A DNA stretch of 36,856 bases from contig ONBI01000013.1 of assembly GCA_900316035.1 (NCBI GenBank), forward strand, positions 1 through 36,856, given 5' to 3'. Positions 194-36,856 of the stretch are shown here, in pieces. A model generated the notes under the pieces. It saw nothing but the letters and a program-made list of their open reading frames with translations, ran no database searches and was not told where the DNA came from. The translations under genes were made by a program, and so were the position numbers. How positions within the stretch are numbered: the first letter of the stretch is position 1; every line of letters starts with the position of its first letter. Origin of the DNA: an uncultured Eubacteriales bacterium. Its GTDB lineage: Bacteria > Bacillota_I > Bacilli_A > RFN20 > CAG-288.

Positions 194-226
194 CCACGAA
201 TTTTCTAGGCTCCTGGCATGTGCTTT

Positions 227-266
227 AATCCTCCCGATGTTCAAAACGGAACCGGGAGGATTTTTT
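227..266 (+). terminator. Rho-independent terminator ahead of the IS66 remnant
   Basis: A 10-bp GC-rich stem (AATCCTCCCG with CGGGAGGATT) is extended inside by GTTC/GAAC and followed by a run of T. It would stop transcripts entering the element from the left, which many insertion sequences do to avoid being switched on by neighbours. Part of it could instead mask the ribosome site (GGGAGG) of the ATG at 273. Confidence 0.65.
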
Positions 267-272
267 AAAGGC

Positions 273-660
273 ATGGTACACAGGGATAAGGAAGAGTTCT
301 ACAAGGGAATACAGAAGGATGCGGAGGACAAGGGAGACGACCCTTTTCTCCGTCTGCCTCTCCAGAGGGATAAGCTACAACACATTCCAGCACTGGAAAG
401 ATAGGCATCCCGCCTCCTTCGGGAAGCAGCCTCCGGATGAGGGTCCGGAAGAGCCTACGGAGGTTATCCACTTCAGGCCGGAAGAGGAAGAAAAGACCGA
501 TAACGGAGAAATTTACGTAGACGACAAACAGAGAAATGCCGGCGGAAGGGAATCCGGGGACGTCGAGATCACCATGACGATAAGCTGCCCGGACCCGAGG
601 AAGCTGGCAAGGATAATGGAGGCGATCGCCGATGTATAGAAGGGAGACGAAGCCGGAGAT
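273..660 (+). pseudogene. IS66-family TnpA (accessory protein) remnant plus first codons of tnpB
   Basis: The frame open from 319 to 639 encodes a small protein resembling IS66 accessory protein TnpA. It has an N-terminal helix-turn-helix-like segment (SRGISYNTFQHW) and a C-terminal stretch (GDVEITM...RKLARIMEAI) typical of that family. A second frame, from ATG 273, reads MVHRDKEEFYKGIQKDAEDK, which would make a natural N-terminus. I therefore suspect a frameshift near 335-350. The stop at 637-639 overlaps an ATG at 635 that opens a next gene (MYRRETKPEI), as expected for tnpB. That gene is cut off after about ten codons by the IS21-like element. IS66 elements normally need TnpA, TnpB and TnpC, so this copy is dead. 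An intact short gene starting at 319 is the alternative. Confidence 0.55.
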
Positions 661-3386: not shown

Positions 3387-4736
3387 TTACAGCTCTTCCA
3401 AAACGAAAGGAAGCATATAGATCGGATAGAACTTCAGCATACCCTCATGACCCACATCCTTTTGGGACAGAAGAATCGAAGTCAGCACTTTCGAAGAGTA
3501 CTTTTTACTGAATTCCGTAATGGATTCGTGTTTTTTTATTGCGGAGGACTTCACTTCGATAGGAACGAGCTTTGTCTTGGAAGTGAGAAGGAAATCCACC
3601 TCATAGTGATGAGAACTGTTTTCTTTTTTCCAGGTATGGTAAAAGAGAGATCTACCGGAACTGACAATCATCTGGGCAACCGCATTCTCATAAAGATAAC
3701 CTAGATCCTCCGAAAGAGAATCGCTAAGCAGTTTCTCATAGATATGTTCATCGGTTTTCTCTCCCGAATGGAAAATAGAAGTAGTGAACAATCCGATATC
3801 GGCAAAATAGAGCTTGAAAATATCAAAATCTTCGCTCTGAGCCAAAGCAAGGCTAGGATCATGGACATCGTAACAAGGAAGGACGGTTCTCGAATCGACC
3901 AGATCCTGGAAGCGTTCCACATCCTTATCTATCTTCTTTTTCTTCGTGGCTTTCGAAATGATGTAGCGCTTTTTGTTCGTAGCCAGTTGACTGGGAATGG
4001 CATCATACATTCTACCGATCAAACCGGTCCCGTCGATACGATAGAAATCATCTTTATAAAGATCGATGATGCGTTTTTTCACTTCATCGATCTGCTCGAA
4101 GTTCTTTCCTTCGACATAGGCTTCCACAGCCTGAGGCATGCCGCCTACTGCCATATACATGCGGAAATCCCTCATCAGTTTCTGGTTTGTCGCTTCGCCC
4201 ACTGGTTTATGGAGCTGATACAGCTGACGCAAGACATCATAAGTATCATTTCCCGTAGCCCACATAAACTCCTCATAGTCCATGGGATAAATCGAAATCT
4301 TCACTTCCTCCGAAGGAAGAACAATACCTTTGATGCTTTTCTTAATACTGATGAGAGAACCCGTTTCGATATAGTCATATCGTCCATCGGCAACAAGATA
4401 TTTGATTGCCTGTCTCACTTTTGGCTGAAGTTGAATCTCATCAAAAATAAGGACGGATTGGCGTTTATATAAGGTAGTATGGGTAACCGTCTGTAGGCGA
4501 AGGAAGAAAACATCCAAGTCGGCAATATCCTCAAAAACATCCAAGACATTCGGTCCGACGTTTGCAAAATCCACGCGGATATAGGATTTGTATTCTTTCT
4601 TAGCAAACTCTTCCGCTATCGTCGATTTCCCGACACGTCTGGGGCCTTCTAAAAGGGCAGCATAATGCGGAGCATCGTTTTCCTTCCATTGCTTCAGCGC
4701 ATCCAAGGCTTTTCTCTTAAAAATTCTTTGTTCCAT
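3387..4736 (-). CDS. AAA-family ATPase with DUF4143 C-terminal domain
   Basis: A 449-residue protein of the common but poorly understood ATPase/DUF4143 group. Walker A is GPRRVGKST (residues 31-39) and Walker B is VLIFDEIQ (about 93-100). The sensor-like motif ETGSLISI follows. The C-terminal part has a PD-(D/E)XK-like pattern: YENAVAQMI, then YEVDFLL, then PIEVKSS. These supply the E, D and ExK positions of a nuclease-like fold. Members are often strain-variable and are suspected of roles in stress or defence, but no function is proven. It is transcribed alone, divergently from the gene at 5043. Its promoter overlaps three 33-bp tandem repeats, suggesting tight autoregulation or regulation by a dedicated repressor. 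Confidence 0.85.
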   Translation of the reverse strand: MEQRIFKRKALDALKQWKENDAPHYAALLEGPRRVGKSTIAEEFAKKEYKSYIRVDFANVGPNVLDVFEDIADLDVFFLRLQTVTHTTLYKRQSVLIFDEIQLQPKVRQAIKYLVADGRYDYIETGSLISIKKSIKGIVLPSEEVKISIYPMDYEEFMWATGNDTYDVLRQLYQLHKPVGEATNQKLMRDFRMYMAVGGMPQAVEAYVEGKNFEQIDEVKKRIIDLYKDDFYRIDGTGLIGRMYDAIPSQLATNKKRYIISKATKKKKIDKDVERFQDLVDSRTVLPCYDVHDPSLALAQSEDFDIFKLYFADIGLFTTSIFHSGEKTDEHIYEKLLSDSLSEDLGYLYENAVAQMIVSSGRSLFYHTWKKENSSHHYEVDFLLTSKTKLVPIEVKSSAIKKHESITEFSKKYSSKVLTSILLSQKDVGHEGMLKFYPIYMLPFVLEEL

Positions 4737-4775
4737 GACTAAAATCTCCCACAGATTCCACGCTTTTCTGTATAT

Positions 4776-4804
4776 AGTTTAAGTTCAAACTACCGTTTTT
4801 TCAA
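4776..4804 (-). promoter_or_regulatory. Promoter of the DUF4143 ATPase gene
   Basis: Read on the minus strand, TTGAAA (complement of 4799-4804) and TAAACT (complement of 4776-4781) are separated by exactly 17 bases. The -35 box lies inside the first unit of the 33-bp tandem repeat, so a protein bound to the repeat would block RNA polymerase. Confidence 0.55.
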
Positions 4805-4894
4805 GTTTTAAAAAGCTAAATACTACCGTTTTTTCAAGTTTTAAAGTAGCAAAAACTACTGTTATTTCAACTTTTAGAGTGGCAAAAACTACCA
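4789..4894. repeat. Three 33-bp tandem repeats (iteron-like)
   Basis: Units start at 4789, 4822 and 4855, with a partial fourth at 4888. Each begins ACTACCG or ACTACTG, followed by a T-rich TTTTTTCAAGTTTT-like block. Units 1 and 2 are closest and unit 3 is more diverged. The exact 33-base period (about three helical turns) puts every copy on the same DNA face, as expected for a cooperative operator. The array fills most of the 306-base gap between the divergent ATPase and the gene at 5043. No other gene is seen in that gap. Confidence 0.85.
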
Positions 4895-5042
4895 TATTAA
4901 AAGCATTCCTCATGAGTCGATTTGAATGCTTCTGTTATCCCTTTTTCCTTCCGGAAGAGCTGAGGCCTTTCTATCTATCTGTCCTTCCTTCTCCATAACA
5001 ACCTCTATCGCAGAAATCCCGAAAAGACTTACAATAGAAACT

Positions 5043-5396
5043 ATGAAACACGACCCATTCAATACAGCGCTATTAAAAGAGTTCCCTCTCTTTGAGAAGT
5101 ACTATCAAGAAGTAGGAAAAAGCACCTTTGATCTAGATACTCCTTCTCTTAATTTCTTAGATTCTCTTTTTACTCCTTACTTCCTTCTCCAGGTAGAAGA
5201 ACAGAACGACGAAGAAGTGAATCATGTTCTTCTCTATATTGAGAACATCTTAGAAGACGAAGAAAAAGAAGAAGAACAGAATCTCTTCTATCAGGGGTTC
5301 TTCTGTTCTCTCTATGAAAGAGGATGCGATCTTCTTTCTCTTCCCTTAGGAGAGAAAGAGAAAGAATACGTGAAGGATTGGTTAATGAAGGCATAG
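5043..5396 (+). CDS. Small acidic hypothetical protein
   Basis: It is 117 residues from ATG 5043. The frame extends upstream to ATG 4926, but those residues look non-native (MLLLSLFPSGRAEAF) and the conserved-looking part begins MKHDPFNTALLKEFP. The ribosome site is weak for either start. The protein is soluble and mostly helical, with a run of acidic residues (EDEEKEEEQ) mid-protein. It faintly resembles the small cytosolic DUF7674-like proteins of Bacillota, but I would not assign a function. It is alone in its transcript and ends at a strong terminator shared with the convergent permease gene. Confidence 0.6.
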   Translation: MKHDPFNTALLKEFPLFEKYYQEVGKSTFDLDTPSLNFLDSLFTPYFLLQVEEQNDEEVNHVLLYIENILEDEEKEEEQNLFYQGFFCSLYERGCDLLSLPLGEKEKEYVKDWLMKA

Positions 5397-5448
5397 AAAA
5401 AGACGGACTCAGAGAAGATTCCTTTCTTCCCTCGGTCCGTCTTTTTTT
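5397..5448. terminator. Bidirectional terminator between convergent genes
   Basis: The stem AGACGGAC/GTCCGTCT (5401-5408 with 5435-5442) is extended by AAAA/TTTT and followed by a T-run. The A-run on the left makes it usable by the minus-strand permease as well. Confidence 0.8.
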
Positions 5449-5451
5449 GTC

Positions 5452-6504
5452 CTAAGCAAACATCGGAAGCGTCGCTACCACTTTCACAAGAACGAAATAA
5501 AGAGGAAGAGTGATGATGGAAAGAACCGTAGAAAGCATGACCGCATCGCTAGCGACATAGGATTCCTTGTTGTAGTTGACACAGAAGACGGCTAAGACCG
5601 CTCCGACCGGAGCGGCATTACCGATGATGAGAGCGGCTAACTGGATCTCGTTGAAATGGAATAATCCGGATGCCTGTAAACCGATGGTAAGAGCTAAGAA
5701 TAAACCTGGGATAATCAGCATTCTTCCTAGGGCGATGATCCAGGCGGTCTTGTTTTTGAAGGCGGTCTTGACGTTACTAGCTCCTAAGGTGACACCGATT
5801 AAGAACATCGAAAGAGGAGTCGCTAAGACATCCCCGAAATGGAAGACCATATATAAAGCCGGTAAGGTCTTATCGATGCGCAAGGCGGAATAATAGGCTC
5901 CGTCAATTTCGGCTTTCGGAAAGACATCCTGAGTGACCCAGATGAGGAAACCTAAGAACATCAGGATCATGACCGGAGTCACAAAGATTCTTCGCATACT
6001 TGGCCAGAAGGTCTTCTTGGTTATCTTCTGTTCACTGATGACGATATAACCGTAGATATAGACAACTAGTCGGAAATCCACCGACATCAGGGAAGTAGGA
6101 ATCAATACCCCGGAAGCAGAACCATAGACCTCTTTGAGAATCGGCATCGAGAAAAGAGTCAATTGTCCTACCGCTAAAAGGAGAGCATAGATCTGTCTTG
6201 CGGTTTTGCCTTTCTTGAGAAAGAGAAGATTTCCTAACAATATAAAGATCAGATAGAAAACAAGGTCATAGACAAAAAGAACGATGTTGGTGAGGAACTC
6301 CTCTTCCTTGAAATCGCTCATGAAGGCGCAGAAAGCCATACAGGGGATAGCGATATCAAGGACTAAGACATTGAGAACGTCTTTCGCTCCCTCTTTTAAG
6401 ACGCCGATATGACGGAGAAGGAAGCCTAAGAAGATAAAGACGATCGAACCTAAGATCGCTCCTAGAAAGTTCTGATCCGTCAATACCTCTTGGACAACTT
6501 CCAT
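5452..6504 (-). CDS. AEC (auxin efflux carrier) family permease
   Basis: A 350-residue integral membrane protein with about ten hydrophobic segments in two halves, the layout of AEC transporters. The N-terminal half begins FLGAILGSIVFIFLGFLLRH and is followed by LNVLVLDIAIPCMAFCAFM, the conserved unwound-helix region. The second half has QLAALIIGNAAPVGAVLAVF and VMLSTVLSIITLPLYFVL. Bacterial members move organic acids such as malate, or other anions. With an oxaloacetate decarboxylase island 9 kb away a C4-acid substrate is tempting, but the sequence does not show it. It is convergent with the gene at 5043 and divergent from feoA. Confidence 0.8.
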   Translation of the reverse strand: MEVVQEVLTDQNFLGAILGSIVFIFLGFLLRHIGVLKEGAKDVLNVLVLDIAIPCMAFCAFMSDFKEEEFLTNIVLFVYDLVFYLIFILLGNLLFLKKGKTARQIYALLLAVGQLTLFSMPILKEVYGSASGVLIPTSLMSVDFRLVVYIYGYIVISEQKITKKTFWPSMRRIFVTPVMILMFLGFLIWVTQDVFPKAEIDGAYYSALRIDKTLPALYMVFHFGDVLATPLSMFLIGVTLGASNVKTAFKNKTAWIIALGRMLIIPGLFLALTIGLQASGLFHFNEIQLAALIIGNAAPVGAVLAVFCVNYNKESYVASDAVMLSTVLSIITLPLYFVLVKVVATLPMFA

Positions 6505-36387: not shown

Positions 36388-36856
36388 AATCGAGTAGGCT
36401 AGGAAATGGAAGGTCCTCTTCCATTTCCGTCGCCTCTCACACCACCCATCATGCCGTTCGGCAATGGGCGGTTCAATCCTACTACAGACCCAACATGGTC
36501 TGCTGTCTTTTCTCCTTTCCGCATCCATGTAGGTTGTCCTATATTTCTTATGTTCTTCACCAAGGATACGCCTTGATTTGTAACCGGTGTCGGACTCCAG
36601 CACGGAACATACATTCGAATCGACAAATCGGATTGTTCGGTCCTTCCCTGTTTCCAGGTACTATGACCTCTGCTGACTCCTCACACTTCGATTTTCTAGG
36701 TGTTACCCTGTGTGAGGTCTCATGGGATAAGTCAATGCTCTTTCCTCGTCTACCCTTGTGATTTACACCCTGGAACTACGGTTGTCTTTTGGGCTTTGTT
36801 ACTTCTTGCCAACTCACCCGTCCAAAGCGCCTTGGTATCACATTTCTATCCGTAGG
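36388..36856 (-). mobile_element. Group II intron, 3' part, without reverse transcriptase gene
   Basis: On the minus strand, domain V is at 36441-36472: a 9-bp stem ACCGCCCAT/ATGGGTGGT, a TG bulge and TGCC/GGCA closed by GAAC. Domain VI follows (about 36391-36436), with an 11-bp stem GGAAATGGAAG/CTTCCATTTCC and a lower stem GAGAGGC/GCCTACTC that leaves a single bulged A (36395), the branch-point nucleotide. The intron ends GAT or GATT at 36389 or 36388. Upstream is the conserved GAGTCAGCAGAGGTCATAG (36663-36681) and GGACCGAAC that usually stand just before the reverse transcriptase gene. Between that point and domain V are only about 170 bases with no reverse transcriptase frame. The 5' end is beyond the window. 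Confidence 0.82.

Follow-up and report, generated by a model that had tools for sequence, protein, structure and literature searches.

What does a tandem array of 33-bp units do at the promoter of a DUF4143 ATPase gene? The question arises in a window of 36,856 nucleotides (the whole stretch of DNA analysed here, contig ONBI01000013.1 of an uncultured Eubacteriales bacterium), for which a sequence-only reading had described three in-phase copies with a 33-base period, the first containing the -35 box, and had proposed a dedicated operator limiting expression as for toxic or defence genes. We compared this array and its gene with those of relatives.

The array and the ATPase gene in the window

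Across the whole window, TRF placed the array at 4787-4893 (minus strand; period 33, 3.2 copies, score 142) and scored the runner-up tandem repeat at 61, making the array the strongest of the window, while a direct-repeat search returned three copies spaced 33 and 33 bp apart, two of them 80% and 76% identical over 46 nt to the reference copy. The upstream lag score of the window gene (49; row L011) was reached by none of 100 dinucleotide shuffles, and the three in-phase copies are thus confirmed. Read on the gene strand, the array consists of three units with core AACTTGAAAAAACGGT, the distal copy being slightly altered: exact 16-bp cores lie gene-proximally at 4792-4807 (AACTTGAAAAAACGGT) and in the middle at 4825-4840 (all minus strand, in a register set by expectation maximization (EM) over 100 arrays), and the gene-distal core at 4858-4873 reads AAGTTGAAATAACAGT, in the same register and matched in the genome search. 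The gene-proximal core includes a -35-like TTGAAA (4799-4804, minus strand), found by motif search and placed in line with the 17-bp spacing peak among relatives, and a -10-like TAAACT follows at 4776-4781 (minus strand). The claim that the first copy contains the -35 box fits, since the gene-proximal copy holds TTGAAA 17 bp from TAAACT; the pair is sigma-70-like but weak (9/12 matches), above all in its -10 box. No RNA family matched the array in an Rfam search of the whole window at gathering thresholds. The only Rfam matches of the window were two group II intron pieces, both at 36640-36856 on the minus strand, at its far end.

The gene (3387-4736, minus strand; open reading frame and domain search) encodes an AAA_14-DUF4143 ATPase of 449 aa, with both domains above their curated cut-offs (AAA_14, E = 6.9e-21, 75 bits, cut-off 27; DUF4143, E = 1.1e-17, 64.6 bits, cut-off 28.1). 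Its product matches seven PADLOC PDC-S01 models, the best at E = 4.5e-96 over residues 5-445, and these models also match five further family members, drawn from clades A-D of the tree described below. The AAA+ ATPase domain (about residues 1-160; 4257-4736, minus strand), delimited by domain search, alignment and model, carries the Walker A motif GPRRVGKS. A helix-turn-helix-like segment was assigned to about residues 236-310 (3807-4031, minus strand) from the secondary structure of the AlphaFold2 model, which is helix-turn-helix-like at residues 259-310, and from its divergence, which tracks that of the core best among four domains. The C-terminal part (about residues 311-449; 3390-3806, minus strand) is a predicted PD-(D/E)XK nuclease fold, on the evidence of the domain model, structural matches and invariant residues. 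E378, D380, E393 and K395 (E-x-D and E-x-K, numbered as in that alignment) are invariant in 28 sequences, and we take them to be the active site of this fold.

The AlphaFold2 model of the whole protein (pLDDT 88.1) best matched two archaeal AAA+ ATPases, 2qen (Z 16.3, 4.7 A, 273 aligned, residues 1-321) and 2fna (Z 15.3, 4.2 A, 262 aligned, residues 1-320), and also CED-4 (4m9s; Z 14.3, 5.2 A, 279 aligned, residues 1-396), beside which plant NLRs rank, with Orc/Cdc6 chains lower. The matches to 2qen and 2fna stop before the nuclease-fold domain. The helix-turn-helix-like segment may be a winged helix, as 2qen, 2fna and CED-4 contain one and as the secondary structure of the model suggests. STAND NTPases, of which CED-4 is one, usually add C-terminal sensor repeats; in the present protein, a nuclease fold takes that place. 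The C-terminal 138 residues, modelled alone (pLDDT 82.1), matched McrC (6hz4; Foldseek E = 9.9e-05; Z 9.7, 2.7 A, 109 aligned) and Can2 (7bdv; Z 9.4, 3.2 A, 108 aligned), with Hjc-type Holliday junction resolvases and restriction enzymes lower; the fold of these nucleases is alike, but here one chain combines it with AAA+ and helix-turn-helix-like parts. Sequence searches for solved relatives gave none that was convincing.

PDC-S01 has been described as an ATPase fused to a PD-(D/E)XK superfamily member and listed among single-gene candidates awaiting validation, most PDCs being without experimental validation (PMC12988326). The window gene shares its domains and model matches, whereas an operator or repeats are absent from the passages describing PDC-S01 in that paper (PMC12988326). 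The comparison with toxic or defence genes is supported only indirectly, by a match to a candidate system that itself awaits validation and by the modelled PD-(D/E)XK fold. Around the gene, IS21-type istA-like and istB genes lie at 824-2805, just past its 3' end. A divergent neighbour at 4926-5396 is weakly DUF7674-like (below cut-off) and could use the same intergenic control region.

A 33-bp step on the promoters of relatives

For the comparison, we collected the 30 best-placed loci from a search of 196 related genomes (117 of which had a match) and 80 named GTDB-contig loci, and self-aligned the 200 bp upstream of each gene. This left 107 distinct genes with usable upstream DNA, namely the window gene and 106 relatives; L044 (short upstream stretch) and the duplicates L088 and L102 were dropped, and the fragment L067 was retained as a negative. 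The best upstream lag was 33 in 92 genes and 34 in 8 (together 100/107), and 89/107 reached p <= 0.01 against dinucleotide shuffles. At lag 33, the controls stood at 3/105 for downstream stretches, 3/107 for gene interiors and 12/364 for other genes of the same loci; two of these 12 were inspected and proved to be a repetitive frame (L062) and a DUF4143 gene with a different 33-bp array (L065). Genes without a clear array comprised 15/107 with a lag other than 33 and 18/107 with p > 0.01, among them L055, whose product is 74% identical to the window protein. With phyla taken from record titles, many of them metagenome bins, lag 33 or 34 was found in 72/78 named loci: 43/47 in Bacillota, 17/19 in Bacteroidota, 8/8 in Spirochaetota, 1/1 each in Fibrobacterota and Pseudomonadota, and 2/2 where no phylum was given.

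The copies are few and regular. Three chained copies were found in 54/107 genes and four in 33/107, and the steps in arrays scoring > 8 were 33 bp in 160 cases, 34 in 14 and 32 in 6. Setting the register by EM on the 100/107 genes above the score cut resolved each unit into a 16-bp core and a 17-bp spacer; the core has a loose consensus, ATnTTGnRRWWW, followed by a variable tail. Neighbouring copies agree at 65-92% of core positions versus 36-60% of spacer positions; therefore, the spacing has been kept although the spacers have drifted, which would not be expected of a simple duplication. Likewise, by eye, four orthologues that are 87-94% identical and come from four genomes have nearly invariant cores and variable spacers and flanks. 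Tandem repeats do arise by slippage, and the near-identical loci L208 and L210 of two genomes differ in their arrays by one exact 33-bp unit; a chance or slippage-made duplication without function is nevertheless hardly credible, given a 33-bp step that is constant across phyla despite diverged spacers and orthologue cores that are better kept than spacers and flanks.

The register also places the units on the predicted promoter. Among 79 non-Bacteroidota arrays, TATAAT-like boxes are most frequent at 23 bp from the first base of the core TTG (32 boxes versus 3-6 at the two flanking offsets on each side), an offset equivalent to a 17-bp promoter spacer, and 38/79 arrays have a box at 22-24 bp, compared with a fraction of 0.15 in shifted frames. 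Further peaks occur at offsets 14 (23 boxes) and 26 (14 boxes). The peak at 14 is less easily explained: in some of these arrays the core lies between both promoter boxes, and the group is mixed. With offset 14 included, which was picked post hoc, 58/79 arrays have a box versus 3-21/79 across 15 shifted frames. In the 21 Bacteroidota arrays, the peaks of a TAnnTTTG-like box are at 22 and, less easily explained, at 27; 17/21 have it within 22-27, a count without a shifted control. These positions indicate that the gene-proximal copies sit on the core promoter. Because copies preceding a -10 box lie upstream of the transcribed part, we take the array to act mainly as DNA.

This anatomy by itself fits activation or repression equally. 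The array might be a gene-specific site at which the ATPase activates the promoter or finds an assembly platform rather than represses, with in-phase direct repeats that end at the -35 box recruiting polymerase or loading the AAA+ protein; three or four copies in 87/107 genes, reaching upstream of the -35 box at a constant step, are indeed activator-like. We regard this version as unlikely, however, as a copy supplies the -35-like TTG in 38/79 arrays and, by eye, a copy reaches the ribosome-binding site in L030, L031 and L080, both of which favour blocking.

Private letters that diverge with the protein

We next asked where the letters of individual units occur. The source genome (1.86 Mb in 93 contigs, 75% complete) holds 20 DUF4143 matches, and, with up to 3 mismatches allowed, a 20-base stretch of the window unit had no sites in it outside the array except one, on contig C68, which carries none of the 20. 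This site (L024, about 1501-1550) has three mismatches, and by eye a second decayed core follows 33 bp further on, so the pair may be a relic array. One unit common to all paralogues of the genome is thereby ruled out, the unit being confined to the window gene and this decayed pair; several other DUF4143 genes of the source genome are, by eye, preceded by other repeats. The pattern is similar elsewhere. In genome G034, the unit of L213 has three exact sites, all in its own array, and no others with up to 3 mismatches. In G029, the sites with at most one mismatch are the four array copies of L217, and at two mismatches the unit has 7 sites against 6 for the reversed pattern, that is, background level. 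Within the examined loci, no copy scoring >= 0.88 was found outside an array; as copies scoring >= 0.85 lie outside the array on 3/144 locus strands, versus 0.1% with the units of other loci, additional sites may exist near a few arrays. We saw no extra avoidance of similar units inside a genome: at matched identity, pairs from one genome resemble each other about as much as other pairs do, and in the bins covering 45-75% identity their units are more alike, at 0.81, 0.70 and 0.76 (2, 5 and 2 pairs). The sequence-only reading had looked to other DUF4143 genes for the same repeat unit, and had named as refutation an array that occurs at this gene alone and is not retained among relatives. The outcome is divided: the letters proved unique to their own gene bar the one decayed site, whereas the 33-bp layout recurs in relatives. 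Across the clade, then, the 33-bp layout on the gene's promoter is conserved and the letters are gene-specific.

The letters change with the protein. Over 91 of the 100 register-aligned arrays, core distance tracks protein distance (Mantel r = 0.455, a value reached in 0 of 1000 permutations). For arrays of different genomes, the cross-match stays at the shuffled level below 60% protein identity (about 0.59 versus 0.60) and rises to 0.65 at 60-75% identity and 0.78 above, compared with 0.90 for a gene's own array. A separate, possibly global, host regulator that reads the arrays is very improbable against this background: the weak family-wide, TTG-containing consensus would suit it, but not a cross-match at the shuffled level between distant proteins with own arrays at 0.90, nor arrays shared along with the gene between families, nor the lack of a recurring adjacent regulator gene. 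Among neighbours in 72 loci, no family occurred in more than 11, that one being a transporter ATPase by eye, and the second commonest (6 of the 72 loci) resembles other DUF4143 ATPases.

We then partitioned the correlation along the protein. The partial correlation was highest for residues 236-310 (0.167), followed by the nuclease domain (0.107), the linker (0.064) and the AAA+ domain (0.004); therefore, the C-terminal two thirds, not the AAA+ motor, carry most of the co-divergence signal. The helix-turn-helix block ranks top in 83% of subsamples, but the signal is not confined to it: the highest-scoring 75-residue window is 351-425, in the nuclease domain (0.214), with window 226-300 at 0.164. 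Scanning in 25-residue windows for a single specificity domain gave several peaks, none of them decisive.

The four orthologues, which come from two families, were also compared by blastn, and their homology spans 1.43-1.52 kb. In comparisons of L248 with the other three, one limit of the homology falls at most 8 bp beyond the stop codon, and the other lies 2, 74 and 93 bp upstream of the first core. Homology so limited means that gene and array occur together in unlike surroundings. These endpoints, shared between families, would suit a single-gene mobile element in which the array is an end or the site of action: the nuclease would cut or recombine at these repeats, and array and gene would move together. 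Also consistent with this are a copy number that shifts by one exact unit (L208 versus L210), the clustering of DUF4143 genes and a host locus adjoining tmRNA. However, the other end lacks the related repeat that transposon ends would have: lag 33 occurs downstream in 3/105, by eye the four orthologues have no common sequence after the stop codon, and at the one locus examined for a precise empty site, none was present. We therefore hold this explanation to be quite improbable. The locus examined is that in L248, where a clade A gene and its array (4327-6329) adjoin tmRNA; a clean empty site was sought beside tmRNA in the related genome G062, and other DNA occupies that spot. As for clustering, L251 has three genes with DUF4143-type Walker motifs, and L250 and L247 have two each.

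A putative self-read operator and its place in the family

Taken together, the array is probably the ATPase gene's own operator, and the ATPase is predicted, from sequence comparisons, to bind its cores and repress its own promoter. The "dedicated operator" of the sequence-only reading is well supported, in that the spacing is conserved in relatives and the unit is gene-specific. Under autorepression, the ATPase would bind the 16-bp cores through its helix-turn-helix-like segment, probably with the help of the nuclease-fold domain, and the AAA+ part would let adjacent molecules assemble on copies spaced by about three helical turns. Such an assembly, perhaps ATP-dependent and spanning three or four sites, would cover the -35/-10 region and keep transcription of the gene low, and the ATP state, DNA damage or an invader might release or remodel the complex. 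Each of the many paralogues in a genome would read its own array only.

Beyond the 33-bp arrays, we examined an order-wide sample, taken as the top of the E-value-ordered matches listed and hence non-random. Among 129 loci handled, 84 were parsed first, 36 of the remaining 45 in a second pass and 9 never; L015 (short upstream stretch), L020, L153 and duplicates were dropped, leaving 115 rows. In a FastTree phylogeny of these 115 DUF4143 proteins, array type changed 18 times, versus 59 on average with shuffled labels; array type thus follows the protein tree. Clade A (53 rows, including the window gene) has 39 significant 32-34-bp arrays, 9 genes at lag 33 with p < 0.2 and 5 others. In clade B (19 rows, Walker A mostly GPKxCGKT), the period is 22-23 bp in 18/19, with one read as 46, and the 23-bp units are again gene-specific (e.g., L002, L145, L151, L185, L186 and L190). 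Clade C (37 rows, mostly GIRRxGKS) includes 30 genes without a significant direct repeat and 7 with one at scattered lags, once 34; inverted repeats scoring >= 12, a cut chosen post hoc, precede 14/37 of its genes versus 4/110 control genes, with long examples upstream of L018, L159, L239, L010 and L017. Clade D (6 rows) has no direct arrays and one strong inverted repeat. Inverted repeats as a family-wide rule were rejected (21/115 at p <= 0.05 versus 14/110 controls).

Plasmid-borne members follow this pattern in part. Among 17 plasmid regions hand-picked for spread from 59 + 269 matching records, 11 reached p 0.01 and 6 did not. Arrays of 32-33 bp, found with a clade A query, occur on plasmids of Agathobacter, Segatella, Collinsella, Glaesserella and Criblamydia, and 23-bp arrays, found with a clade B query, on those of Collinsella (twice), two Bacteroides, Prosthecochloris and Lentilactobacillus. 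A 3.9-kb segment carrying a Fic-like gene and an ATPase gene with a 23-bp array is common to L244 and L245; both contain a repeat of about 170 bp, which was considered as a cassette end and discarded, as it overlaps the end of the Fic-like gene.

These array types invite a broader and more tentative proposal, which we advance as speculation. The DUF4143/PDC-S01 ATPases might form a large repertoire of orthogonal DNA-address readers, each with a private array in a layout fixed by clade (33-bp direct, 23-bp direct or inverted), in which AAA+ assembly on the array would go beyond an operator and restrain or aim a sequence-directed nuclease, and loss of, or competition for, the array would be the trigger. 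Such triggers could be invading DNA with similar sites or the shut-off of transcription.

Some known systems resemble the proposed autorepression. The repressor RptR acts on its own promoter by way of three direct repeats; the -10 box of a defence operon overlaps with two of them (PMC12255303). The likeness lies in three direct repeats at the regulator's own promoter, binding here being predicted from sequence; RptR differs in being a dedicated regulator that reads 9-bp repeats with a 6-bp palindrome (PMC12255303), whereas here 16-bp cores lie 33 bp apart and each gene has its own version, presumably read by the ATPase-nuclease itself. RNA of the Thermus DUF4143 gene TT_P0211 was 6.6-fold up with a plasmid in Argonaute-positive cells (PMC4406477). 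Among the papers listed in our open-access literature searches, none was seen to report such arrays. Initiator/iteron and Orc1/Cdc6-origin systems likewise pair a gene with nearby direct repeats that its product, a DNA-binding and in some cases AAA+ protein, binds; here, by comparison, one genome has many such genes, each with its own unit.

One survey counted 29,494 occurrences of PDC-S01 in bacteria and 9,986 in archaea and ranked it as the fourth most common defence system across prokaryotes (PMC12988326); among individual loci of rumen genomes, it is reported to be the most frequent (PMC13356809). The array pattern is itself widespread: many genes of this ATPase-nuclease family carry private, evenly spaced repeats on their promoters. 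Array types allow the family to be sorted, and gene starts and promoters to be fixed, from sequence alone, and a conserved, predictable DNA ligand before many PDC-S01-type genes provides a testable handle on binding, control and the part of the protein that sets specificity.
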